A stretch of 53,114 nt of DNA from Acanthamoeba castellanii str. Neff (taxonomy: Eukaryota > Discosea > Longamoebia > Acanthamoebidae). The position numbers and the translations under genes are program-made. Below the pieces are notes generated by a model. It worked only from the letters and a program-made list of their open reading frames with translations. It ran no database searches and was not told the origin of the DNA. Positions within the stretch are counted from its first letter, which is position 1; every line of letters starts with the position of its first letter. The stretch covers positions 16,338 through 69,451 of the forward strand of contig NW_004457321.1 in NCBI RefSeq assembly GCF_000313135.1, in the 5' to 3' direction. Below are positions 24,065 through 50,221 of this stretch, one piece after another.

Positions 24065-25219
24065 GATCAGCTGGTGGAGGTGATGGAGACATCCAATCAT
24101 CAACAGCCAACAAATGTAATATTGTACAGTATACACTGCCACATGTGAAGACTTTGGTGTAGTGTTGTGTGATCACCTGTCAGTGTCGGGCACTTTCGTT
24201 GTTGGCGCGGTTGTGGCTCGCCGCTTTTCGGCCGCGGCCACGACGCTTCGGGAGAATGTGCTCCGGAGCGTGATCCAATTAGACAAAAGCGTTGGCGTTT
24301 TATTACGCGCTATGCCCGGAATGCTGGCGCACGTCTTGAATGGAGGTTTGAGCAACCACGGCAGAGCCAACACAAAGCCCACAGACCTTTTGCATTCTCA
24401 CGCTTTCAGGAAACAGGTGACCACATACACTGCCCTTCTTTAACTTGCAGCTCCAGCGCCCCAGGCCCTCTGCTTGAAGTGATGGTACGCGTACCACCTT
24501 CGCCCTCCCCACCCAACTCTCCTGCGGCTTTCTTGTTGTGCCCGCAAAAGGGTAATTGGGCTTTTTAATTATGAATATAATAAATTATGTAATTATTTAT
24601 TATTTTATATTTATGTGTACTTGAACAGGGGAACAGCAGCAGTGCAGGTCCCATACAACTGCCAGCACAGGTCACCAGCCAAGACCTGGCCCAAGTCTGG
24701 GTCCGTTGCTCCTACGTTCCTAGCACCGACCGCACGCACCGCACACGCACGATCGCACGCACCGCGCCGACCGCACTCACCATTCGGTTTCTTCCTCTCA
24801 GGATCGGTACGACAAGCGCAAGAGCGGAGAGCTGAGCTCCGCCAAGGTCCACAAGTTCATGAAGGACCTGGCCCACGTGGCCGGCCTCAAGTACGACAAG
24901 GCCGAGGCCGACCGTCTCATCCGCTCCGTCGTCGACCACCCCGACACCGCCGCCGCCGGCGCTTCCACTCAGCCGCAGCCCAGCAGCAGCAGCGGCAGCG
25001 TGCCCCGGAGCCCGCGCAAGCAGGAGGCGGCGGAGGGCGACGTGCGGGTCGACTTTGAGCGCTTCCGGCGGCTGTTCCTCGTCGTGCTCGAGAAGGAGCG
25101 CGAGCAGCAACAGCTGCTGCTGCAGCAGAACGAGAAGCAGCAGCAGCAGCACGTGAAGCCTGCGTCGGCAGCGCTGCTGGGCAGCCGCAAGCTGAGGAGC
25201 CACCACCAGGCCAGCAAGA
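24065..25219. repeat. Duplicated segment, copy A (5' region and first exons of EF-hand gene)
   Basis: From GATCAGCTGGTGGAGG onward this segment matches copy B at 26054-27160 along its whole length. Exons are nearly identical, with small in-frame differences in Gln and Ser runs; the intron before exon 3 (24701-24801 against 26671-26740) is much more divergent. Copy A is cut by the gap. Confidence 0.93.
24482..25219 (+). CDS. EF-hand protein, putatively N-myristoylated, copy A (cut by gap)
   Basis: The best model has a first coding exon made of ATG alone (24482-24484) followed by donor GTACGC, exon 2 at 24629-24700, and exon 3 from 24802 into the gap. The join gives MGNSSSAGPIQLPAQVTSQD, then LAQVW and DRYDKRKSGELSSAKVHKFM. 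MGNSSS fits the N-myristoylation rule (Gly2, Ser6). The EF-hand loop D-R-Y-D-K-R-K-S-G-E-L-S is degenerate (Arg and Lys inside the loop), so calcium binding is uncertain. A Ser/Gln-rich helix (EKEREQQQLLLQQNEKQQQ) follows. The 3' part is missing in the gap. Confidence 0.6.
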
Positions 25220-26053
25220 NNNNNNNNNNNNNNNNNNNNNNNNNNNNNNNNNNNNNNNNNNNNNNNNNNNNNNNNNNNNNNNNNNNNNNNNNNNNNNNNN
25301 NNNNNNNNNNNNNNNNNNNNNNNNNNNNNNNNNNNNNNNNNNNNNNNNNNNNNNNNNNNNNNNNNNNNNNNNNNNNNNNNNNNNNNNNNNNNNNNNNNNN
25401 NNNNNNNNNNNNNNNNNNNNNNNNNNNNNNNNNNNNNNNNNNNNNNNNNNNNNNNNNNNNNNNNNNNNNNNNNNNNNNNNNNNNNNNNNNNNNNNNNNNN
25501 NNNNNNNNNNNNNNNNNNNNNNNNNNNNNNNNNNNNNNNNNNNNNNNNNNNNNNNNNNNNNNNNNNNNNNNNNNNNNNNNNNNNNNNNNNNNNNNNNNNN
25601 NNNNNNNNNNNNNNNNNNNNNNNNNNNNNNNNNNNNNNNNNNNNNNNNNNNNNNNNNNNNNNNNNNNNNNNNNNNNNNNNNNNNNNNNNNNNNNNNNNNN
25701 NNNNNNNNNNNNNNNNNNNNNNNNNNNNNNNNNNNNNNNNNNNNNNNNNNNNNNNNNNNNNNNNNNNNNNNNNNNNNNNNNNNNNNNNNNNNNNNNNNNN
25801 NNNNNNNNNNNNNNNNNNNNNNNNNNNNNNNNNNNNNNNNNNNNNNNNNNNNNNNNNNNNNNNNNNNNNNNNNNNNNNNNNNNNNNNNNNNNNNNNNNNN
25901 NNNNNNNNNNNNNNNNNNNNNNNNNNNNNNNNNNNNNNNNNNNNNNNNNNNNNNNNNNNNNNNNNNNNNNNNNNNNNNNNNNNNNNNNNNNNNNNNNNNN
26001 NNNNNNNNNNNNNNNNNNNNNNNNNNNNNNNNNNNNNNNNNNNNNNNNNNNNN
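25220..26053. other. Assembly gap (run of N)
   Basis: All N. It lies between the two copies of the duplicated segment, which is typical when near-identical copies or alleles are not resolved. Confidence 0.99.
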
Positions 26054-27160
26054 GATCAGCTGGTGGAGGTGATGGAGACATCCAATCATCAACCCAACAT
26101 ATGTAATATTGTACAGTATACACTGCCACATGTGAAGACTTTGGTGTAGTGTTGTGTGATCACCTGTCAGTGTCGGGCACTTTCGTTGTTGGCGCGGTTG
26201 TGTCTCGCCGCTTTTCGGCCGCGGCCACGACGCTTCGGGAGAATGTGCTCCGCGGAGCGTGATCCAATGGGACAAAAGCGTTGGCGTTTTATAACGCGCT
26301 ATGCCCGGAATGCTGGCGCATGGCTTGAATGGAGGTTTGAGCAACCACGGGAGAGCCAACACAAGCCCACACACCTTTTGCATTCTCACGCTTTCAGGAA
26401 ACGGTGACCACCTACACTACTGCCCTTCTTTTACTTGCAGCTCCAGCGCCCCACAGGCCTCTGCTTGAAGTGATGGTACGCGTACCACCTTCACCCTCCC
26501 TCCTTGAGGCTTTCTTGTGGTGCCCGCAAAAGGGTAATTGGGCTTTTTAATTGTGAATATAATTATTTATTATTATATATTTATGTGTACTTGAACAGGG
26601 GAACAGCGGCAGTGCAGGTCCCATACAACTGCCAGCACAGGTCACCAGCCAAGACCTGGCCCAAGTCTGGGTTCGTAGTGCTCCCACGCACCGACGACTC
26701 CCCTCACGCACTCACTATTTTTTGGTTTTTTTCTACTCAGGATCGGTACGACAAGCGCAAGAGCGGAGAGCTGAGCTCCGCCAAGGCCCACAAGTTCATG
26801 AAGGACCTGGCCCACGTGGCCGGCCTCAAGTACGACAAGGCCGAGGCCGACCGTCTCATCCGCTCCGTTGTCGACCACCCCGACACTACTGCCGCCGGCG
26901 CTTCCACTCAGCCGCAGCCCAGCGGCAGCAGCAGCGGCAGCGTGCCCCGGAGCCCGCGCAAGCAGCAGGAGGCGGCGGAGGGCGACGTGCGGGTCGACTT
27001 TGAGCGCTTCCGGCGACTGTTCCTCGTCGTGCTCGAGAAGGAGCGCGAGCAGCAACAGCTGCTGCAGCAGCAGAACGAGAAGCAGCAGCAGCACGTGAAG
27101 CCTGCGTCGGCAGCGCTGCTGGGCAGCCGCAAGCTGAGGAGCCACCACCAGGCCAGCAAG
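26054..27160. repeat. Duplicated segment, copy B
   Basis: Second copy of the 24065-25219 segment. Differences include CCAACATATG for CCAACAAATG near 26100, a CG insertion at GCTCCGCGGAGC (26246), one extra Ser codon and one fewer Gln codon. The match begins at the gap edge, so the true left border is not visible. Confidence 0.93.
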
Positions 27161-29915: not shown

Positions 29916-32035
29916 TTAGAAGATGTCGGGCAGGACGTAGTGGTCCACGGCGCGCGAGGTGTTGGTGGTGATCTCGAAGCGGATGGCGTAGACCCACTGG
30001 TTCTCGAGGTCGACCAGCGCCGTGGCGTTGATGTCGAAGCCGTTCTCCTTGTTCACCGTCGACAGGTTGGGCATCGGCAGCTCGGTCTTGCCGTCCTTCT
30101 TGGCCTCGAACAGGAGCTTGTCGAGCAGCGTCTTCGTGACGTAGGTGGTGCTGTTCGAGCCCCTGCTGCTGAACTCCACCCTCTTCTCAGCGGGAACCTC
30201 CACCGCCTATTATTTAAAATCGTGAGTAAAATGATTTAAAAAAATGACAATTACAAAAAGATAAACAGATACCATTTAAAAAAGAAGAAAAAAAGAGACG
30301 AACCTGAGTCCAGACGTTGCCCTCGGCGTCGGTGTCGTCGGCGGAGACGAAGAAGGCGACGGGCGTCTTGAGCTGGGCCGCGCGCGACTCCTTGGTCGAG
30401 AGGTAAAGGGGCTGGTTGCGGTGCTCGATCACGATCTCGGCCTTCTTGCCCTCCTTGTCCTCGAAGCTGATGCGGATGCGGAGCGGCGACGGCAGCGAGC
30501 CGTGGGCGCGGCGCTCGCGGTCGAACTGGCGCGCGTTAACCTTAACAGCGCTGTTGATGGCCAGGTTGAGCCTGGCGTTGGGCTCCAGCGTGAAGCCCTC
30601 GTGGCGCGCGCCGAACTGGTAGTTGTAGTACCCCTGCTTGTAACCAAGCCTGCACACGACCGCACACACGACCGCACGACACGCACATGTGTGTCAGAAA
30701 TCTGAACATGTTGAGAATATGTGGAGGGGAGTAGTAGAACGTACGAGGTGGTCATCTCAATCCACTGGCCGTCCTTCTCGTAGGCCGACGAGATCTTGGT
30801 GAGGGCGACCTCCTTCTCGAGCGGGTTGAAGATGGCCAGGTTGTTATAAAACTTGTTCCAGTAGCCGTCGCTCTCCCTCCAGCCCTGGTCCGGCTGACAG
30901 GCGTCCTTCTGCTTGATCTCCAGGCCCAGGTCGCCCACAGCCACGTTGTTCTCCGGCACCGGGCTCTCCACAATACCCTCGGGCTCCTGATCGCCTGCAC
31001 TCACCACGTCAGTCATCATTTAGGCGGTGTGTGTCGTGTCGTGTCGTGCTGTGTGTTGTGTGCGATGGCATGCGAAGAATGCAACGTACGGGGAAGGAAG
31101 TCCTTGCCAGGCACGTAGGCGGGACCTTGGCGCACGGGCGCAGGGATGTCGTAGGCCTTGTCGGGCATGCCGAAGAAGGAGTTCTGGATGACCTTGGGTT
31201 CGCCCAGAACGAGGCCGTCGACCTTGATCGGCACCACCTCGATGTGGGCGCGAGCGTCGCTGGTGGCCTTGACCGACAGCTCGGCGGCGGTGACGACGCC
31301 CGCCTCGATGATGAAGTGGACCTCGATCGCCCAGTCCCACTTGCCGTCCTTGACCGCCTTGTGGGCGATCAGCGCGCGGCCCTCCTTTTCGCCGAACGTG
31401 CGCAGGCTCTCGGCGTCGAACAGCTCCAGCTTGTCCACCTCCGTCGCGGCGCCGCCGATCTTGACGTAGATCTTGTTGTGCTTGTGCTTGCCGATCTCGG
31501 CGTAGCGGGCCGGCGCCGTGCGCGGGTTGCCCTCGGCGTGGTCCGTCTGCGCCACCTTGTGGCCGCCCTTCTCCAACAGACTGTCACAAACAAATTCAGA
31601 TAAATATGATTAAAAATAAATATGATTAAAAATAAGGAAGTAAATTCTAAAAAAAAAAGAGATAAAGATAATGAAGTGGAAAATGTGAGTGTGGTGTTGC
31701 AGTTGCATGTGTGGCGTGTGGCGTGTGGCGTGTGGTGTGTGGTGTGTGGTGTGCTGGACATACGGGACGTGGAGCTTGAGCCAGGTGGGGAAGTCGAGGG
31801 CGTTGAGGGCGGAGCCGTCGTCGATGACGTCCTCGATGAGATCGTGCGCGTTGAGCAGGAAGCCGTCGGCGGTGAGGAGCTCCTTGGCGCGGGCAGTGGG
31901 GTCGCCCAGGTGGTTCTGGAAGCGGCGGTTGATGTCCTCGATGAGGCGCTCCACCTTGTCCGTCACGTTGCCGCACGGCACGACGAGCCTCGACTGACCG
32001 AACACCACCTTGACCTTCATCTTGTTCGCCTTCAT
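29916..32035 (-). CDS. Orphan beta-rich protein with ubiquitin-like/coilin-like N-terminus
   Basis: Five exons from ATG 32035 (MKANKMKVKVVFGQSRLVVP) to the stop at 29916. The first ~90 residues, with KVKVVFGQSRLVVPCG, KVERLIEDINRRF, TADGFLLNAHDLIEDVIDDG and ALNALD, have the strand-turn-strand-helix layout of ubiquitin-like domains, closest by eye to the coilin N-terminus. The remainder (about 500 residues) is mostly alternating beta-type sequence with recurring stretches such as KWDWAIEVHFIIEAG, NPLEKEVALTKISSAYEKDG and NQWVYAIRFEITTNTS, suggesting two or three related beta-sandwich units. No catalytic motif or membrane segment is seen. Not recognised. Confidence 0.55.
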
Positions 32036-32771
32036 GGTTGGGTTGATGTTGATGTGGGTGTGCTCTGAGCTGGTGCAGGACAATGGTCTGGGGATATGGT
32101 CCTTTTGTACATGTTACAGGGCCAGGTTCACCGAAGCTGCAGTAGGCGATTAGATGGTTGGTTGGGCGAGTGTGATGTTGCTGGTTGGTCCGAGTATTTC
32201 CCATATTATTCTCCGCAGCCAATGGCATGATCCCATTGCCGGAACATGGGATCTTGACCTGGTTGAAGTTAAAAGCCCAAACTCTGCTCGCCTATTGGCC
32301 TGGCGTACCGTTCGTACTCGTTGAGATTTTCCACTCGCCCCTCGCCGAGTAAGGAACGCCGAGTACCGCCTGTGGCCTGCCTCCCCAAGCCGTCAGCCAA
32401 GGTAAGCAACTCGCGCACCACAGTGTCCGTCCCCGCGGCCCACATATTGTTTGACGATCCGACAAGATCACTACCACTGATCTTCTTCAACGTCTACAGC
32501 TCGTTCGTACCCGTACGTGCTTGCTCGACTGAACGACACGCAACAACGCCACAGATGGTGGGCACCGTTCTCCAGCAGCAAGAAGAACGGGCCACCGTTC
32601 GCCAGCAGCAAGAAGAACATCAATTCCACGAATTGTGTACAATGCCCTTCTGCGAAGCTGGCCACCACCTTTTACTTGATTTATATCTCGTTTTATATCT
32701 CTTTTATAAACATTTCTGTACAGAAGACTCTTCAGGGGGTAGAAGAGGTGATATATATGGGGGGGGGACGG
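32036..32771. other. Intergenic region with a possible relic coding stretch
   Basis: Upstream of the minus-strand orphan gene. On the minus strand at 32269-32446 a short open stretch (MWAAGTDTVVRELLTLADGL ... ending SLGF) has codon use like real genes but no recognisable family or context. At 32564-32620 an imperfect 29-bp direct repeat (CACCGTTCTCCAGCAGCAAG and CACCGTTCGCCAGCAGCAAG) occurs. The rest is T-rich. No gene is claimed. Confidence 0.4.
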
Positions 32772-33997: not shown

Positions 33998-35733
33998 ATG
34001 GGGGAGCTGCGACGCGCCTCGTCTGCACTCTCCCCAGCAGGCGTCTTGGCCATGCTCGCAATCCTCTGCCTATTCCCCTTGTGCGCCCCCCCCCCCACCT
34101 CCCTCTACATCCTTTACACAACATACCACAGAAAAGAGTCGGCTATTTTGAAAGAGGTGTCCATATTTTACCATATTTGGTAAAATTAAAATCAATAATA
34201 ATATATGTGTGGTGCCACGCTAGGGGGAGCCGAAGCTGTGGTGTGACGACGCACAACGTGATCGCCCACCGCGCGCAGCAGTGGCTGGGCGACAACTACC
34301 CTGGTCTGCGCCCCTACGCCGAGCTACTCCGCGAGCCGGCCAACCAGCAGGCCTTCCAGAATGGCGCGGCCTTTCCTGACTGGGGCTACACGTGCCCACT
34401 GGCTGACGTCGGCTATCCCCTCCTGCCCAACATGAGCGAAGCCGCACATTGGGTGCCGTCCCGCTTGCGTGTGCATATGTGTGTGTGCGGTGGTGCGTGT
34501 GCGGTGGTGCGTGTGCGGTGGTGCGTGTTGCTGACACAAGAACGAACACACGCAGCCACCGTTCCAAACGGCGGTGGTGGAGCACATTCTCCAGCACTAC
34601 CCGAAGGCGAGTGGCGACGGGACGTGGCCCGACAGGGCGCAGAAGCTCATCGCCTTCCTGCTGGGCGTCGTGTCACATTCCGTGGCTGACATCACGTGGC
34701 ACGACATCGCCACCGCCGAGTACATTCAGCAAGGTATGTGTCGTGTGGCGTGTGTCGTGCGGTGTGTAGTGCGAGGCTCATGGTGCGAGCTTCCAGGCTT
34801 TATCCAGGCGCTGGCGGAGGCCGACTACTACGTGCGTAACAGCTCGTACAGCGGCACGGAGCACTCGGAAGCCGACGCCGGCGGAGAGTTCATGGCCGCC
34901 TACGAGCTCGATCTCTCCTTCCTCTCCGACACCTGGTGCGTTCACTCTTCGTTCTTCCTCTTTCGCTCTTTTCCGTTTCGTTTTCTTGGCACACAAAGTC
35001 GCCGACAGCTCAATGCGGTTGCTCTGCATATGCAGGTTCTTGCCGGCGGAGGACCTGGCGCAGGTGTTCGCAGCGCTCAACTACAGCGTGCCGCCGTGGG
35101 TCATCAGCACGTGCAACAGCGAGCTCTACGCAGAGGTGATGGCCATCAAGGTACCTAATCGACTGTTACTGGCCAATCTCTGAGGCGCTGGAAAAAGTCT
35201 CATTTTCTTGGGGGACTGTGTTGCTGGTGTGAAACAGTACTTGGGCAAGGCGCTGTACCCCGAGTTTGCCAAAGATGCGCCGTTCATGATCGACCACTAT
35301 CAAGACTACTGGCTGGGTAAGCGACACGACACACGAAGCACACAACACGCACGACACACACGACACGCACGACTGCACAGGATGAAAGGAGTGATGCGTG
35401 GTGGGTCATGCAGGAGGGGTGAACGACATGGCCTCGTGGACCACGCAATGCTGGCCCAATGTGATCTCCGCGCTGGAGACCGGGCGGCCCATTCGGTTCT
35501 GCTTCGAAGACCAGGAGGGCTTCCAGCCATTCACCGACGGCGGGGCACGCATAATCATGCGTCAGGTATGACGCCCCATGTGCGGCGAACATTGCTCGCA
35601 TTCCTCCCTGTCACTGAGCGGTCTGTTGCCCAATGCAGCTGCGCCGGGAAGGGCTGGCCCAGGCGCTCCACCCCTACTCCCAGCAGATCTCCTTCGAGCA
35701 ACGCATCACTCCGTAACTCCCCCTAGCTATGCT

Positions 35734-35766
<33 letters not shown>

Positions 35767-38730
35767 GTGTTGTGTGTGTTTGTGTGTGTGTGGGAGGAGT
35801 GCATTCACACAAGCGCGATGTCGATACAGGGATGGTGTGGTGCTCTTCAATCCCAGGGTCAAAGAGCCGGCGGCAGCTTCGCCAGTCAATTTTGAGGCTG
35901 TTATGCGGCTGAAGCTGGGAATCGACAAGCTGAACGCCGAGCATTGCGAGTCGCAGACCGGACCCGCCACAGGCTCCTCCCTCTCCTTCTCGTACTCTCT
36001 TCGCCACGCACTCGCGCACGCACGCACTCGCGCACCACGCCTCGCCTGGCTGATCGACTGCCCGACTCTCTCCTCCATTTCTTCTGCAGAGTCCCGATCG
36101 GCTATTCCTACACCGGCGAGAGGTGCGTCCTACGCACCATTCACACCACCACCGCAGCATTAGCATTGCTAACTTTTTTTGTTATTTGTTTTTCTCATCA
36201 CCAGCTTGGCGACGGCCGATTTTGACGGTGACGGCCTCGAGGACTTCGTCGTTGGCGGTACGTCGACCTGGCCAACGAGGCCCGCTCGCTGCAGACACTG
36301 ACACTGCTGGGCATGCTACAGCACCGGGCTATACCCCGTTGCATAGCAACCGGTCGCAGGTGGGGGCGGCCTTCGTGGTCTTTGGCGCTGAGGCGACGGC
36401 ACAAGGCCACCACACGGTCGATCTGGCCGCAGCAGCCGCTGGACATGGAGGAAATGCCAGCGCTCCGGTGGTGTGGGCCTTTCACGGCCACGCCTCCAAC
36501 GAGCGATTCGGCGAGGCGGTCGCCGCCCTGGACTTCAATCTCGACGGCGTGCTCGATCTCGTCGTCTCCGCCCCGGGCTTCGGGTTCGAATTGCACCTCT
36601 GTCATGCGTGTCGTGTTGCGTGCCGCGTGTCGTGCCGCACGTCGTGCTTGTCGTGTGCCTCGCGTGTGTCGTGTCTGTCGTGTGTGTCGTGTGTGTCGTG
36701 TGTGTGAGGGTTGCGTCGAGCTGATGAATGGCGAGCAGGTCGGGCGATCTGAGTTACTATGGGCGTGTGCACGTGTTCCTGGGCCGCAAACACGGCGGCA
36801 ACAAGTTTTCATTCTCCCCGACGCCCGACATCGTCATCGCCACCTATCGCTCCTGGACCAACCTCGGTACTCACCCCCCCCCCCGCCTCGTCGCTTCGTT
36901 CTTCTTCATTCTTTTTTCGCAATTAAAGAATGAAGCCCTGATGGGCGGGCGGTGGCGGGGCAGGCTACGCGCTGGAGGCCGGTTGCGACCTGGACGGCGA
37001 CGGGCACCCGGACCTGGTGGTGGGCTCGCCCTACGCCCGCGGACGGGACCTGCACCTCGACACGTGGGAGTTCTTCACCTACCAGCGCGGCGCCGTGTCC
37101 GTCTTCCTCTCCTCCACCCTACGGCACCCCACCCAAAACCACCTCGACTGGAAGTACGTTAGACACGACACGACACGACCAACGGCACGACACGACACGA
37201 CACGACACGACACGACACGACACGACACGACACGACACGACCAACGACACGACACTGAGTTGCGCATGACACACGCAGACGAGATGCGGATTGGTTCATG
37301 GAGGGCGAGGCGGCGTACGATTGGTTCGGTTCGGCGATGGCCTGCCACACGCGGAAGTCGGGCGGGAGCCTGCTGGTCGTGTCCGCGCCTGGCGCGGCCG
37401 ACCCGCCACCCGCCAGAGCGGCCGCGGCCGGGTCTACGGATTCCTCTTCACCGCAGCCGTTGCGGGGGCCAGTCCCGGTGCACCGCCGCTCACCGCGCGC
37501 CGGGTCTTTCGGCTGTCGGGCTCGCGCAAGTTCGACCACCTGGGCGTCGGGTTGGCTCTGGGCAACCCCTACGGCGGCGACCACTCGCTCTACCTGGCGG
37601 TCAGCATGCCCACCCGGCCCGTCTACTATTGTACGCTCGGATCCAGTGCCAGCGCCAGCCCGGCTGAGCTCAGGGGTCGCATGGCTCACTGCGTGTGGGA
37701 CCCAAGATTGGTTCTGGGAGATGATGCAGGCGGGCGAGGTGGTGCTGCTTGATGTGGAGCGCGACCTGATGGATCGGGGCAACGTCTCTATCGACCAACT
37801 GCGTACGCCACACGCTCGCGCACACGCACACACACACACACACACATGCACACCAGCACACCAGCACACGCACACGCACTCGCACACAAGCACACAAGCA
37901 CACGCCCCACTTCATGGTCGGTACCCAGGCTGGCTGAGTGAATTTCGTGGACCAAAATAGGGCCACGCACGACGTTCCAGTCCGAGCAGAGCTACGCCCG
38001 CTTCGGACAGTTCCTGACCTTTGTCGATCTCAAGTGAACCCCCAATCCCACAACACTCGCAACACGCGATACACACCACTCACGACACACACGACACTCA
38101 CGGCACACACCACACTCACGACTCTGGGGCTGGACACAGTGGCGATGGCACGGACGATCTGGTGGTGGCCGAACCGCACTTCGCCGCCGATGCGGGAGCC
38201 GACGCTGGCGCTGTCTTCGCGTGGACCGGCGGGCCGCACTTCCCGACCGGCACAGTCGCCCCCGTACGTCCCTTCGCACAAAACACGCACCTACACGCAC
38301 TACACACACGACACACACTAGACGCACGCGTGCAACACACGACCGGAGAGATGTTTGTTTTTGGGCCAGCCGTGCAAGTCGTGGTTTACGCCTTTGTTGC
38401 AACCGCGCGAACACCCCACAACACACACCGCAGGCTCCGGCGAATTCCGCTGCGCTGTGTGTTCGCTCCGAAAGGCCGTTCGCGCTGTATGGCCGGCGCG
38501 CGGCGGTGCTGGACTTCAACGGCGACGGCAAGGCCGACCTGCTCCTCTCCGGCCCGCGCGACACCACCGCCGCACAACACACACTGACACCCACAACCAC
38601 CCACGTACGTGTTCTTTCCCTTCCGTGTGTGTTGTCCTGTCGTGTGTCGTGCGTGTAGTGCGTGTGCGCTGATCAACTCCGACGCGTGGGAGACGTGCAG
38701 GCGGGCTCGGTCTCGTTGATTCTCCGCTGA
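33998..38730 (+). CDS. GPLD1: Glycosylphosphatidylinositol-specific phospholipase D (GPLD1-like)
   Basis: About sixteen exons from ATG 33998. A hydrophobic signal peptide (VLAMLAILCLFPLCA) is followed, after an intron, by CGVTTHNVIAHRAQQWL, the start of the mature zinc-dependent catalytic domain. Expected metal ligands are visible: THNVIAHRA, FPDWGYTC (34370), EAAHW joined to PPF, and HSVADITWHDI (34675). The middle matches GPLD1 with DYWLGGVNDMASWTTQCWP (35310-35460). The C-terminal half has integrin-like FG-GAP calcium repeats: TADFDGDGLEDFVVGAPG (split by an intron), ALDFNLDGVLDLVVSAPG, DLDGDGHPDLVVGSPY and VLDFNGDGKADLLLSGP. It ends VGDVQAGSVSLILR. Such enzymes release GPI-anchored proteins from membranes; secretion or lysosomal location is inferred from the signal peptide. 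Many introns are repeat-rich, and exon borders after 37700 are less sure. Confidence 0.85.
35731..35792. repeat. (GT)n repeat, intronic
   Basis: GT units with scattered TT interruptions in an intron of the GPI-PLD gene. Confidence 0.85.
36609..36706. repeat. GTGTCGT-type array, intronic
   Basis: Degenerate CGTGT units on the coding strand of the GPI-PLD gene, the opposite orientation to the array at 37161 in the same gene. Confidence 0.8.
37161..37254. repeat. (CACGA)n pentamer array with two CCAACG interruptions, intronic
   Basis: About 17 pentamers, with CGACCAACGGCACG near the left end and CGACCAACGACACG near the right end. The longest array of this type in the window. Confidence 0.92.
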
Positions 38731-43041: not shown

Positions 43042-43232
43042 TCAGTAGAAGGTGGTCTTGAAGGGGATGTACTGGGGGCTGTCGGTGAGGGAGATCTCCA
43101 GGTGCTCGCCCTCCAGGAACGTCAGCGCGTAGTTCACCAGATGCCCGCGCACCTGCTTCAGCTCCTTCTCCAGCTGTTGCAAGAAGTGAAGAGAAGAGAA
43201 ATCAACCCAGTCAGTACCTACAGACCATTCCA

Positions 43233-43275
<43 letters not shown>

Positions 43276-46200
43276 CACGAAGAGGTAAACACAGGAGTGC
43301 GCACCTTGAGCTTTTGGTCGAGCGGGACCTGGTGGAAGGCGTCCTTGCGTCGCTCAACCTCCTTGAGCGTCTGGATCGAGTTCTGGGGCATGTAGGGGAA
43401 CACCCTCTCATACAGCTCCGTGTTGCTCTGGGCCACATGGTCCCTGCACCGCACACAGTCAGAAACACGGCACGACACGCACCATCACACACCGCACACG
43501 CTGCGCACACCGCACACACGACACGTACCAGTAGGCGAGGCCTTCTTCAGAGACGGGGTCGCTGATGAGCTCAAGCAGCTTCTTGTCGTCGTTGCCGATG
43601 CCGAGGTGCTCCTTCCACAGGGACATGCGGAGCGAGTGGCAGAAGCGACCCATGTAGAACGGCTGCCCGCCCATTCGACCCGCCACCATGTCGTCGTCCT
43701 TCACCCACGCCGCCAGCTCCGAGTCCCGGTATCCGTCCAAACTGTGTTGCGTGCGATCGTTGTTGAGTGCACCGCACACACACACACACACACACCGCAC
43801 ACATTGCAGCTTACCTTCGGTCGTTGATGTTGGCCGAGCCGATGATGGCCTCTTGGTCGTCAATGATCAGGAGCTGGACGTGTGAAAGAGAGAGGAGAGG
43901 AGAGAAAATGGTGAGAAAAGTTTACGCGCGCGCGTCGGTGAATGTTGACGGGGTCGCTGGGTACCTTGGCGTGAATGTAGACGCCCTCGGTGACGGGGCC
44001 CACGTTGAAGAGGTGGCCATGCGAGCGCAGGGCGTGGAAGGAGATGTACTTGCTGGCCTCCTCGAAGCTCACTAAAGAAACCAAAGATTAACATTTTGTA
44101 TGTCAGCCACCACTCACGCAGCTCTCAACTTTGACTGGTCGTGCGTACTCTTGAAGCGGCGCTGCAGCTCCCTGAAAATCGACCTTGGTCCCTTCCAAAT
44201 AGTACTGTGTTGCCTGGACGAACACAACACGACACACGACACACCGGCGCACACGGCACGACACACGCGACACAAAGGTGGTGAGGGTGGACGGGAGGAG
44301 AAGGGGGACAGGGGGACACAGGACGTACAGGCCGATGATCTGTCGGTTCTTGATCTCGGAGAGCGGACCCATGGCCGGCTCGCCGGGCACGAGGATCATC
44401 ACGCGGAAGGGCTGGCGCTCGCGCGCGGCACGACCGATGCGGGACACGAGTGCGTGGCCGATCGCGTTCTGTGGGCCGCTGCCGCCGTCGAATCGCGAGA
44501 TGAAGAACTGGATGACGTGGGAGAACCACAAAACAAGCGTGAGAAACGAATGCAGATGCTCACCCGCACACGATACAACACGCAACACGACACACACGAC
44601 ACAACGCGCAACACGACACACCGACAGGCACCAGGAGAACGACGTACCTGGTTTTCGATGTAGATGAAGTGCTTGGCCTTGTTGATGAGCGCAAAGTGGG
44701 CGTGGCACAGGGAGGTCTCCTTGCGGTTCGCCCCGCTCCACATGGCCATGCTCCGCACCATCTGAACCGAACAGGCCACCGGATTGGGCGTCATCTGATG
44801 GTAAGGGTGGTGCGTGTGCTCAGTGAGTTATCAATACACCGCACACGACACACACACACACACACGACACATACCTGGGTGTAAGGCTCGGGTCCGGAGA
44901 CGCGGCACTCTTCGGTGAGAATGCGGTTGACGTCCCACCCCGAGTTATCGATGACCAGCTGGGCAATGCGCTCCCGCTCGCGCTGCTGGATCTGCTCCGG
45001 GACCAGCAACAGCTCCGGTAGGTACGGGTCGCTACCGTCGGCCAGGAGGGCCTCGTGGTCGGCGTCGGTCGTCGGGGCCTTGCCCTTGCCCTTGCGGTCG
45101 TGCGGCTGCAGCGCGGGCACCGACAGCGCCGTCACCTCGTCGCCCGTCGTCTCGTCCACGGTGGTGATCACCACCGCGCTGTGCAGAGGCGTGTGGTCGT
45201 TGTCGTCGGCTTCGGCCTTTGGCGCCGCCAGCTCGCCGGTAGTGTGCTGGCGCTCGCTGACGCGCTGGGTCTCATCGACGTCCGCCGCCTCCTTCGACCG
45301 CGACCTGCTGCGGTGCTGGCGCTTGCTGGCGCGACCGCTGCCGGCGTCGTCGGCCTTGGCGTGGTGGCTGAAGGGCCGCTTGAGGAAATTCTTGATCTTG
45401 GCCAGCAGGCCGCGGCCGCTGTGCTGGTTGTCCTCGTTGTTGGGCGCGTTCTCGTCACGCGGGTCCTCGAAGCCGCCGTCGGGGCCGAGGCACCCGAATC
45501 GCTGCTCGTTGACCAGCTCGTAGCAGCGCCGCCAGCGCCCGTTGGCCGCGGCCCACGCCATGCCGCCCAGGCGCTGGGTCTGCTCCGGCGTCAGGCCCGC
45601 GTCGAGACCACCACCAACGCCGCCGGTTTGGAAGAAGGGGTTGGGCAGAGGCTTGAGCACGGGGAAGCGGGGGCTGATGGCCTCCATGACCGGCAGGAAC
45701 TGCTCGTAGTAGGTAAGCTCGGCCCGGTGGTGGTTCCACCGCTGCAGGAAGTTGTAGGCCAGATCGACAGCCGCCTCTCCATCTGCATTCGCATCATTAG
45801 CACACGACACCACACTCACAGCGCGCACGACACGCACACACCGCACACGATAGAAGACGTACCGACGCTCATCATGATGTCGTGCCAGCCACAGCGGGGC
45901 TCTGTCTCACGGTCGTGGACGTCGACAAAGGGATCGACGAAGGGCGGCTCCGCGATGTGGAAGTAGTCGGCGCCGGGCCAGAGCGTGGTGAGCCGGTTCT
46001 CGTCGGTGATCACGTGCTTGTCCGTGTCCCACCGCCCGAACGCCACGTCCATCCCACCAACGAACCCCTGCCACAGCCATCCACATCATCTCAGCTCAAG
46101 CGCGTCGTGTGTGTGTGTGTCGTGTGTGTGTGTGGTGTGTGTGTGGTTTACCTTGACGTGTTTCGTGCCGTAGTCGACGACCATCGCCTTTTGGTGGTGC

Positions 46201-49200
46201 GAATACGGGTGCGTAGGCGCGCCCTTGAAGTGCGGGTGCCGCATCAGCTTGATGTTGGGGTGGAGGTTCATGAGCCGCTCCTGGAACGTGCCCGACCCGT
46301 GGTCCATCGCCACCTTGGGCTCCTTCCACAGCAGGATATAGATCTTCACGCCTTCGCGTGCCTTCCGCAGCAGCAAGTGGTCGAAGCGGTCGTCTTCGCG
46401 GAAAGGCGGAATGCGGCGCATGTACATCTCGGCTGCGTGAAAGGCAGTCAGTACGACACACAACACACACACCCGACAGAAGTCTACGTACGAACGAGGC
46501 GCCACGAGGAGAGCAGGATGTTGTGCTGGGCGGCGGAGATGGCGGCGGCGAGGGCGTAGAAGGCGTCGCGGCCGTCGACGAACCAGCGGCAGTTGATGTT
46601 GCGCCGCACCGGCACGTAGGCGCCGTGGATGAAGCCCTGCATGGCCCAGTACTGGATGCCGACGGCCCACTTCTGGAGCTCGCCCGTAGGATCCAGGCTG
46701 ATCGTGCCCGAGCGCATCTCGAGCACCGGGAACTCGTCTCTGCCTCCGCGCAGCACCAACTTGGCGGGGTAGTGACTCTGTGTAACGTGTGTGTCGTGTT
46801 GCGTGTCATGGCTTTAGCTCGAGAGTAGAAAGACATGAGTTCGCGCGTGTTGCTGACTTGTGTACCTCTGCTTGCTCGATGTGCACGCGGAAGCCTTCAA
46901 GTGCGATGACCTGATCAGGGATTCGCGACACCACACGCGCGTGAGTACGTTTTCGTGTAGCTGCTATGAACCCATGGAATGTAAGGAATGTGTACCTCCA
47001 AGGCGTCGCCGCGCTGCTTGGCGTGCTCGTCGACGTACAGCACCGCGAAGCCTTCGACCAGGTCCACCAGGCGTCGCTCCCACTTCCTGTGGTTGCGGTT
47101 GACCAGCAGATAGCCCGACCTGGCGATGAGCTCGCGTTTCTGTCGACAAACAGTGCGTGTGTGAGCGTGTGTCGTGTCGGGCATGCGTCAGCGCTGGCGG
47201 GAGGGGGGAGGTACGACGAACCATCTTCATGGAGAGACCGCCGTCGCGCGTGACGAAGCACTGGGTCGCTTCGGCGCTCTGTATGAAGTTGCGCGCGTCG
47301 GCGTGCAGGTGGTTCTTGAGGTATTGCTCGTCTTGCTGTCGGCGCGTCATCTTCATCCGGGCCGCCGTGAAGCCCGAACCGAGCGTCACCTCTGCGCGCA
47401 AGCAGCGAGCGCGAAAAACATCACACCACACTCATATATGAGAAATGGCTTATTGTCCTACAGCCTTTGGTATTTGAAAAGTGGAAGGGAAAGACGTACC
47501 GTGCGCTGCAGCCTGCTGGTGAGCGTACCAGGCGAGCTTCAACGACTCCAGATGACTCGCAGGCTGTGAAGAATGTGTCGTAACCGGTTAAGAATGTGGG
47601 AAATGTGCGTGAGCGGGGGGGGGGGAATGTAAGGTACGCGGTAGGGTTGGAGGAGCAGGACTTTGTCCCGCTTGAGCCAGGCGCACAGCTCATCGAGGTA
47701 GGAGAACTGCTCGTCGCCGAGGCACCACTTGTTCTCCGAGCGGGTGAAGTACGAGCAGCCAAGATAGACCGTGGGCTCACCAGGCGTCCTATGACGATTC
47801 TTAGAATCAGACACACACGACACACACGACACGGGCAGCAATGGCGTACTTGTCTTCGACCCAGGTGGCACAATAGCCGGCTTCGTTGATACCAGGCACC
47901 GCGCGCACGAAGTGGAGCAGGAATGTGCCAATTGGCTGGTCATTGAGAAGCAGCTTGGCTTCGTCCAGCGTCTGCACCGCCTGGAAGTTCTTGTCGGCCA
48001 CCAAGGCGAACACCTGCCCGACAGCCACAACAGCGACGACCGTCAGCATCAACAATTCAAATACTGCTGCGCGGCCTGGAGCTGGTCCGCACCTTGTCGA
48101 GGAGCGCGTTCTGCACGGCAGGCAGCGGGAAAAAGCGGAGGAAGTGAAGGAAGGAGGAGAGGCGAACGCGCCCGGTGAGCTCCCGCTTGAGCAGCACGTC
48201 CTGTCGAACGTGGGACAGCGCGCCCTTGAGGTGGTCGTCGAGACCCCACTTGCGAATGCGCTCTTCGATCTCCACCGGCGACAGCGCGAGGGCTTCGTTC
48301 GTGTCCCACTCGGCTGTGAACACGACATACCGAACGTGAGTATATACACACAATATGTTCATATGTACATAAATTAAACAAAAAGCGACCAACCACGGTG
48401 AAGGCAGACTTGTATACCGATGAGCTGGTGAATGACGTAGAGGGCGAGGATCTTGTTGAAGTGCGGATGGTCTGTGGGCGGCGGTGCTGTGCATGACGAC
48501 TCCAGGGTCGCCGAGTCGATGTCTTCGTGCATGTGGTCGCGCAGGAACGCGCGCTCGAAGTTGGCCCAGCTCACGCCGAAGAGGTGGTCTTCAACGCTGC
48601 GACGCTGCATCATCAACGCCGAACTGCTCGAGGCAATGCCGCTGGTGCCGGCCCCGATGGCGCTGCCCTGCTGGGCTGTGGCCTCCAGCGCCACGGCCTC
48701 CTTCCAGATGTCGCACGCCGCCGGTTGCGGCACGAGCGCGTCGAGTATGAGGCGCTCCAGCGCCTGGCAGATGGAGCGGATGTCGGGCCTGGCCTTGGGG
48801 TGTTGATCGAGGCACGACGCGATCAGCTCCTTCATTTTGTCGCCCTCGGGCGTCCCACTACCGAGCGCTCCCTGTACGCCGCACGCACATCAGACGTCTG
48901 CTTTTGGGGTGCACGCTGTCGTGTGTGTGTGTGTGTGTGCTCACCGATAGCTGTTCTGGGAAGGGCACAGTCTCAACGGCGGTCTCGAGCGGTACGGCGT
49001 GAAGCGCAAGGATCTCAAAGAGAAGCACGCCAAAGGCGTAGATGTCGGCCGCGAGGGCCATGGGCGTGCCGGAGCCGCCGGTCTCCTCGATTTCCTCCCC
49101 GTCCAGCACGGACCCGTCGTGATCGGGCACCGTCGCAGCTCGCAGGCCGCGCAGGTTGAGGCCAAAGTTGGCCAGCTTGCATTGTCTGTTCAACACGTCC

Positions 49201-50221
49201 ACCTGTTCATCCATTGTAGTGAAGGCCATAACAGCAGCGTCGTGTCAGTCGCCCGACACACACGACACACGACACACACGACACACACACAGAGAGAGAG
49301 AGAGAGTAATACCAGGACGTTGGCCTGACACAAATCGCCGTGGGCGATGCCGCGCATGTGGAGTTCCCTCAATCCGAGGGCGCAGTGCCACGCGATGTAC
49401 AGACGGGTGTGCAGCGGTATCTGCATCTCGGCGATGTCCCGGCCCTCGTCGTCAACGCCGCGCCGCACCTGCGCGATGACCGTCTCGAGGTCCACCGCCG
49501 CAGGGAGATGCTCTCGCACAATCTGGAGGGAGATCTCGCTGCAGTGTGTGTGTGTGTCAGTACTGACAACGCCTTTGAGCGGCAACACTACACTGTTGTC
49601 GACAGTGGCTGTACCCAGTGATAGCTTCCTCAAGGCGTAGCACAGAATAGCTCCAAATATTGGGGTGATCCTTGACGCTCCTAGACTTGTCTCAGTCAGC
49701 GCACGACACACACACCACCACCGCACACGACGCACACGACTTGCCTACCTGAGGAGTGGAAAAATTGTGGGGTCGAGTAGCGAAGCGGCTGAGGGCGGCA
49801 AACGGATGGACTGCACCTCAACCACCTTGCGATTGAGCACGCCGTAGCGCTGGCCGTCCTCGAGGCCCACCGGTGCCCGGCTGGAGCTTGAGCTGGAGTT
49901 GGACCCTCGGCACCGGGCCTCGTCGCAGAAGCGGAGCCACTGCGACGAGTCGGCGCAGATGAGCTCCTCGGAGAGCGCCGGCAGCGCGGTGGCGCCAGAA
50001 GTGCTGCGGCTGCGCGCAGCGGAAGATGAGTAGGAAGATGTAGTGGTGGGGAGGAGAATGGCAGGTGGTGTAGAGGATGTAGAGGAGGTGAATGGCTCCT
50101 TGGCTGCGACGAGGTCATTCATTGTGGCGGAGGAGGCGTGATCGCTCTCGGTGGAGGCGCTGAGCGAGGGGATGGCGGACGGTCGCAAGTAGAACAAGAC
50201 ATTGCGCTTCGAATCGAACAT
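43042..50221 (-). CDS. Pseudokinase-SH2-PH-phospholipase D fusion protein
   Basis: About 22 exons. A Ser-rich N-terminus leads to a kinase-like domain with HPNIWSYSVLCLEE, catalytic loop IAHGDLCQANVL (49318-49353) and LANFGLNL, where DFG is NFG (Asn codon 49167-49169). The usual VAIK Lys may be Arg (VQSIRLP). After SPVEIEERIRKWGLDDHL and LTGRVRLSSFLHFLRFF (SHK-like linker) comes an SH2 domain: LDEAKLLLNDQPIGTFLLHF with the FLVR Arg as His (47912-47914), and FSYLDELCAWLKRDKVLLLQ. Splicing continues in phase through PASHLESLKLAWYAHQQ to a PH domain (SGYLLVNRNHRKWERRLVDL, 47100) and a PLD: SHHQKAMVVD (first HKD, ~46190), FVGGMDVAFGRWD, KHFIYIENQ, and YIHAKLLIIDDQEAIIGSAN (second HKD, across an intron at 43870-43975). 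Sequence stays open above 50221, so the true start may be further up. Confidence 0.75.
43233..43275. repeat. (GCAC)n tetranucleotide repeat, intronic
   Basis: Ten perfect GCAC units in an intron near the 3' end of the PLD region. Confidence 0.93.

Follow-up and report, generated by a model that had tools for sequence, protein, structure and literature searches.

The question raised by this locus is whether a kinase-like signalling region and a phospholipase D (PLD), lying next to one another in the genome of Acanthamoeba castellanii str. Neff, belong to two genes or to one and, if to one, what such a head would do for the enzyme. The locus is part of a 53,114-nt stretch of contig NW_004457321.1, which we call the window; positions are counted along that whole stretch, and its gene is referred to as the window copy (C201 where loci are compared). 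The original prediction, made from the DNA letters, was that a pseudokinase, an SH2 domain and a PH domain are spliced in frame to a PLD between 43042 and 50221. Taken as a whole, our results are best explained by an SHK-derived head fused to a probably active PLD1-type PLD, in one old family in which the head would be a regulatory and targeting unit. We put the probability of this reading at roughly 0.62.

Rebuilding the gene by hand reproduced the predicted span exactly. The coding gene (43042..50221, minus strand, as for all features of this gene given below) runs from an ATG at 50221 to a stop ending at 43042, with 24 exons and 23 GT-AG introns giving one frame of 1718 amino acids and a single, terminal stop. 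The frame is uninterrupted over the eight head exons, and the predicted junction was confirmed, with phase kept and no stop. Exon 8 ends in ...LLLQPYR at 47638, the short exon 9 (PASHLESLKLAWYAHQQAAAH, 47500..47563) connects the SH2 region to the PLD half, and exon 10 (47222..47391) starts at 47391 and leads into the PH-like region. Exon 10 is given by the gene model, and exon 9 by the gene model, spliced alignment and linker comparison. A spliced aligner run on the window DNA with a Balamuthia mandrillaris protein (P0002) as sole query recovered 14 of the 23 introns to the exact base, including that between exons 8 and 9 (47637-47564). It missed introns 1, 2, 4, 7, 9, 12 and 21-23; intron 7 lies inside the SH2 region, intron 9 separates exons 9 and 10, and the Balamuthia model stops near intron 21. 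The core of exon 9 aligns with the linker of Balamuthia at the collinear position (RPASHLESLKLAWYAH / KAKNSLEHLKLVWKNH) with a score of 36, a value reached by 2 of 2000 shuffles (mean, 18.6; standard deviation, 4.1). Exon 9 read in the two other frames scored 15 and 17, and the tail obtained by reading on past exon 8, which covers exon 9 DNA in another frame, scored 15 and 24.

The deposited Neff record (P0001; 1564 amino acids, "phospholipase D active site domain containing protein") also joins the kinase to the PLD. It is letter-identical to the rebuilt protein save for a differing start (residues 1-73) and three omitted stretches, residues 136-203, 542-560 and 1374-1384 of the rebuilt model. 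The second of these (VRLSSFLHFLRFFPLPAVQ) adjoins the SH2 region on its upstream side and is conserved in relatives, and its omission may have helped hide the SH2.

The same arrangement is found in Balamuthia, where P0002 ("Phospholipase, variant 2," 1808 amino acids) carries Pfam matches to a kinase, to SH2 (6.3e-7) and to both PLD profiles. BLAST of the window protein against P0002 gave four collinear blocks: the kinase (24% identity, 2e-16); the linker, SH2 and exon 9 (29% over 315 amino acids, 3e-26); the PH-PLD portion (40%, 2e-83); and the second HKD motif (47%, 1e-45), after which the P0002 model terminates early. The Balamuthia genome is described in the available part of its report as annotated with Funannotate and RNA-seq reads (PMC10471605), and P0002 may originate from that work.

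Searched with Pfam, the A. castellanii assembly (38.4 Mb, 250 contigs) yields 40 SH2 exon matches, all of them outside the window. Searches with PLD profiles found 5 and 8 matches, spread over seven contigs, and a query of Balamuthia linker plus SH2 found nine, of which the window gene accounts for two. The PLD and SH2 searches coincide at two further loci, C133 (71.6-77.2 kb) and C44 (696.7-701.1 kb). Each has, on one strand and in this order, a kinase-like region, linker, SH2, second linker and a PLD bearing both HKD motifs, as judged by tblastn and spliced alignment. The SH2 of C133 is among the 40 matches; that of C44 is split by introns and absent from them. Pfam on the spliced pieces recognised a kinase (1e-13), SH2 (6e-8), PH (1e-5), PLDc_2 (5e-15) and PLDc (3e-11) in C133, and a kinase (2e-10), SH2 (7e-7) and PLDc (6e-14) in C44. 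One open frame of C44 takes in the SH2 end, the linker (SGSSLDELRALW) and some 30 residues more, the PLD core still being reached via splicing. The end of this stretch (LGYRPIITYA) resembles by eye the GYEPLIYV ahead of the Balamuthia PH region; the alignment leaves the two unpaired. The N termini of both genes, including the kinase N-lobes, are rough models (L031 1371-1889 for C133; L033 3601-4483 for C44).

Three of the five loci with a PLD1-type core bear the head (C201, C133 and C44). The other two, C124 and C93, gave no head match in upstream stretches of about 4.6 and 5.5 kb, respectively. Among control PLD loci, C250 and C247 gave no head match and C207 one weak match, and the proteins P0003, P0004, P0020 and P0042 had no kinase or SH2 match on Pfam reading. 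Three homology searches, two of which scored a limited candidate set, returned 86, 12 and 24 proteins. Among the matches listed, only P0001 and P0002 bear a kinase in the precomputed Pfam column, and we recognised no protein corresponding to C133 or C44. The third search, with the four-member alignment as query, returned P0001 and ordinary PLDs and missed P0002, itself a member of the query, so it was not exhaustive and carries no weight on absence in other organisms.

These loci bear on the simplest alternative, namely two adjacent genes, an SHK-like one ending by read-through of exon 8 at a stop near 47541 and a separate PLD beginning at an ATG in exon 10. The exon 8 frame does run to that stop, exon 10 does contain ATGs, and gene spacing here can be short, the next gene downstream beginning about 260 bases past the PLD stop (by eye). 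Against this, the same order recurs at C133, at C44 and in Balamuthia, whereas with 40 SH2 matches in the genome chance would place 0.0036 SH2 exons per PLD locus in the 7 kb upstream, same strand. Moreover, the C44 frame crosses the SH2 and linker without a stop, although its PLD core needs splicing; the linker exon is conserved; and the deposited Neff model is joined. Given the order shared by C133, C44 and Balamuthia, the conserved linker and the chance value, the two-gene model was rejected as extremely improbable. An assembly chimera was likewise rejected as the source of the fusion. At the level of sequence, then, the fusion of kinase and SH2 to PLD is real, and a single gene is predicted to encode a single polypeptide. 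A single locus might still give several products, with an internal promoter yielding a headless PLD beside the full-length protein or intron retention yielding the head by itself. Intron 8 has no in-frame stop and read-through meets one soon after, a TATA-like stretch is seen by eye in intron 9, and the Balamuthia record is labelled variant 2; we regard this as improbable, if less so than two genes.

The SH2-derived domain of the window copy occupies exons 7 and 8 (residues 567-671, 47638..48013) and was delimited by alignment with relatives that Pfam calls SH2. Its assignment depends on those relatives because the Pfam and PDB searches give no direct match; the 105-residue piece alone had no Pfam match at an E value of ≤1. 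With the three relatives, identity is 30 to 36% in the SH2 and 34 to 37% in the region preceding it. When a four-member profile was searched against the PDB, five PLD sequences came first, followed by 55 further rows at E values up to 1 (60 of 61 matches listed). By name, 54 of these 55 non-PLD rows are SH2 proteins, matched at profile positions 119-218 with a best E value of 0.0053; the remaining row is a MarR regulator matched at another place. Taken singly, these E values are weak, a small set of proteins accounts for many of the rows and the matches may be driven by the three relatives; the weight of the check lies in the agreement in kind and place.

That the region is an unrelated spacer, not derived from SH2 at all, is suggested by the missing direct matches of the window copy alone. 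We rejected this idea, which we find scarcely credible, since the region can be aligned along the full SH2 length with three relatives in which Pfam recognises SH2; the 29% identity with Balamuthia over 315 residues (E, 3e-26) and the SH2 rows found with the four-member profile (54 of the 55 non-PLD rows listed, best E 0.005, possibly driven by the relatives) also speak against it. The window region is homologous to SH2 domains, as judged through its relatives and not from the window sequence alone.

The arginine of the FLVR motif is, however, replaced by histidine in the window copy (GTFLLHF, 47929-47909), whereas Balamuthia, C133 and C44 keep it (GTFLFRF, GTFLFRF and GTFLMRF, respectively). 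Basic and histidine residues kept in the next strand of the relatives are also gone (by eye). Thirty of the 40 SH2 loci in the genome were fetched, and 23 have an FLVR-like motif with arginine (22 by pattern and L009 by eye; L011 and L014 overlap, and L029 is C133). In the other seven the pattern found no motif, though one of them, C9, has GTYLVRFSS. No second locus with histidine at this position was seen among these 30 of 40, seven motifs being unread by the pattern. The earlier suggestion of a phosphotyrosine-type or protein-binding input therefore has to be divided: because of the histidine and the lost next-strand residues, phosphotyrosine input is unsupported for the window copy. A classical phosphotyrosine input fits the sister copies and is unlikely for the window copy, for which plain protein binding or intramolecular gating by the head is possible.

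Ahead of the SH2 lies a TKL-type pseudokinase region (residues 170-379, 48758..49646), matched by Pfam PK_Tyr_Ser-Thr at 1e-16 over profile positions 62-258 of 258. An N-lobe with the VAIK lysine was not recognised in it. By eye, the HRD position reads HGD in the window copy, Balamuthia and C133 and HGA in C44, and the DFG position reads NFG, NYA, EYG and GIG in the window copy, Balamuthia, C133 and C44, respectively. The competent set of VAIK, HRD and DFG motifs characteristic of an SHK kinase is thus missing, and from these motifs the kinase is judged a pseudokinase in all four members. Because the motifs are degenerate, we call the protein SHK-derived and do not class it as an SHK kinase. 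Between pseudokinase and SH2 is a linker (residues 440-566, 48093..48577) like that of SHK kinases, conserved in the four members and alignable with a canonical SHK at C143.

The order of TKL-type kinase, linker and SH2, the last recognised via relatives, is that of Dictyostelium Shk1-5, described in the accessible part of the kinome paper as SH2-bearing TKL kinases (PMC1420674). A single open frame at C143 holds the kinase C-lobe, the linker and the beginning of the SH2, and the N-lobe upstream of it, with VAVKKL, looks intact. C9 resembles C143. C72, whose kinase match precedes an SH2 match by about 1 kb on the same strand, is probably another SHK-like copy. A profile of the four heads aligned with the C143 piece from the kinase C-lobe into the SH2 (hhalign probability 99.4%, 7e-22, 181 columns), which bears out the SHK-like head of the original prediction. 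As judged by homology, the head, consisting of pseudokinase, linker and SH2-derived domain, is SHK derived.

In the place of the predicted PH domain, a PH-like segment in exons 11 to early 13 (residues 750-857, 46643..47139) aligns with that of the relatives (35% identity to Balamuthia, 32% to C133), but Pfam sees no PH in the window copy. The profile reaches its cutoff only in C133 (26.3 bits versus 25.1), and the PH identity of the window segment would rest on relatives. The PLD1-type core and C terminus follow (43042..46642; Pfam PLDc_2, 3.9e-12, and PLDc, 7.5e-6). Homology to PLD1 and PLD2 was found by phmmer, by the tree described below and by the family profile, which matched the PLD1 structure 6u8z at an E value of 9.6e-163. 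As predicted, both HxKxxxxD motifs lie in the same chain. The first, HHQKAMVVD, spans residues 986-994 (46173..46199); the second, HAKLLIIDDQEAIIGSANIND, spans residues 1536-1556 (43820..43973), is split by intron 20 and includes an invariant GSANIND. Because none of the four members departs from the H, K and D of either motif, the PLD is probably active and would produce phosphatidic acid, from phosphatidylcholine if it acts as a PLD1/PLD2-type enzyme. No PX domain was matched by Pfam in any of the family members searched (the window copy, Balamuthia, C133 and C44).

The history of the family was examined with a tree of 31 PLD cores (532 columns, LG+C20), comprising the five loci and 26 hand-picked proteins of the 112 returned. 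Stars mark only nine of the 28 inner branches, and several of the distant rows are long branched. The window copy, C133, C44 and Balamuthia form one starred clade (96/95) with the topology (C44,(window,(Balamuthia,C133))), and the SH2-less C93 and C124 fall outside it. The clade without C44 is also starred (100/97), which indicates at least one duplication before the split of Acanthamoeba and Balamuthia, both of which are Centramoebida. The pairing of Balamuthia with C133 (96/67) is not starred; the two are also the closest pair in the SH2 (58%, versus 30 to 36%). A second duplication before the split would rest on this pair. The pattern is best explained by one fusion, probably followed by at least one duplication before the two genera diverged.

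The window branch is the longest of the four (1.02), and the window head may for that reason be decaying. Further points count against a regulatory head on an old fusion: Pfam matches neither SH2 nor PH in the window protein; phmmer with the window linker and SH2 against the PDB returned one chance match only, to Mediator; C44 has no Pfam PH and only 14 to 20% identity to the other members in that region; and the pseudokinase state rests on motifs read by eye. In its full form the idea of decay would mean that the window pseudokinase and SH2 are decaying leftovers, the PLD being governed by lipids alone via its PH and core sites. The lost SH2 arginine, the Pfam-blind SH2 and PH and the long branch all suit such a history, yet the frame is open across eight head exons and the SH2 and pre-SH2 regions still share 30 to 36% and 34 to 37% identity with three relatives. 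We consider a vestigial head unlikely, though the least unlikely of the rival explanations.

If the head is functional, as we prefer to think, it would be a non-catalytic regulatory and targeting unit of a PLD making phosphatidic acid. In the sister copies (C133, C44 and Balamuthia), a phosphotyrosine ligand might recruit the enzyme to membrane sites, might free the PLD from inhibition by the pseudokinase-SH2 unit, or both; the window head might act via phosphotyrosine-independent protein contacts or within the molecule. Targeting is plausible because the SH2 of Shk1 is said, in the accessible text of the Dictyostelium kinome paper, to be required for plasma membrane localisation (PMC1420674). 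More tentatively, at somewhat less than even odds, these genes could be a centramoebid family of phosphotyrosine-gated PLDs in which an inactivated SHK kinase came to serve as an allosteric switch, so that tyrosine phosphorylation would turn on phosphatidic acid within one polypeptide, the window copy having been rewired to a phosphotyrosine-independent signal.

The original prediction knew of no SH2-PLD fusion. No description of one was found in the literature searched, where those of the broader matches that were listed were judged by title and the Clarke 2013 supplement drawing SH2 proteins, which might show C133 or C44, was outside the scope; among the matches listed, none on Acanthamoeba PLD or phosphatidic acid was relevant by title. 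The claim holds less well for databases: P0001 joins kinase and PLD, and P0002 carries kinase, SH2 and PLD matches. The architecture is thus visible in databases yet undescribed in the literature searched. The 2013 genome report counts 22 protein tyrosine kinases and 48 SH2 proteins in A. castellanii, and the portion of its main text available uses "phospholipase" once only, as phospholipase C (PMC4053784). The Physarum paper reports 18 SH2 proteins, with the word "phospholipase" absent from its accessible text (PMC4758236), and that of the Balamuthia paper has "phospholipase D" once, as an enzyme class in all three strains (PMC10471605). As far as the literature searched extends, this would be the first PLD reported to contain an SH2 unit, and its lineage has a full tyrosine kinase toolkit. 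The fusion suggests how an active SHK kinase became a regulatory head and offers a testable, direct route from protein signals, which would be phosphotyrosine signals in the sister copies, to phosphatidic acid. The three paralogs, two that keep the SH2 arginine and one that has lost it, constitute a natural experiment.

Elsewhere in the window, a neighbouring gene at 34535-37667 (plus strand) has a Zn_dep_PLPC match (8.8e-6; 26.2 bits, just under the 26.8 cutoff) followed by FG-GAP repeats (2e-9), a combination that we take to resemble GPI-specific phospholipase D. A Par3/HAL-type N-terminal domain (PF12053, 1.2e-11) occurs, in an amoeba, at 31610-32113 (minus strand). Two coding stretches on the plus strand (24724-25219 and 26474-27100; SSAK.HKFMKDLAHVAGLKYDKAEADRLIRSV), nearly identical by eye, flank a run of N's at 25220-26053 and represent either a tandem copy or an assembly duplication.

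Among known systems, SHK kinases (Dictyostelium Shk1-5, likened here by description and not by sequence, and C143, C9 and probably C72) have the order of kinase, linker and SH2 in common with the family. In contrast, the four family members have kinase motifs that are degenerate by eye and a chain that goes on into PLD, and the window SH2 is without its arginine. The PLD1/PLD2-type enzymes (human PLD1 and PLD2, plant PLD zeta and fungal PLD1) share two HKD motifs, the same core and a PH-like segment ahead of it; the family shows no PX match and has an SHK-derived pseudokinase-SH2 head instead. Balamuthia P0002 has the same architecture and PLD clade as the window copy, with 40 to 47% identity in the PLD blocks, and it keeps the SH2 arginine. 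A Planoprotostelium protein (P0087) has a PLD1-type core but a RasGEF, GRAM and cNMP-binding head in the precomputed list, and a EukProt protein (P0020) has such a core but C1 domains; no SH2 is listed for either. Because these two cores carry other signalling heads, the swapping of heads on PLD may be widespread among amoebae and their relatives. In PLC-gamma and other lipid enzymes with SH2 domains, an SH2 is likewise built into a phospholipid-cleaving enzyme, a direct coupling of protein to lipid signals. Their catalytic domain is unrelated, their head is different and their lipid product is another, so the likeness is one of logic, not of kinship.

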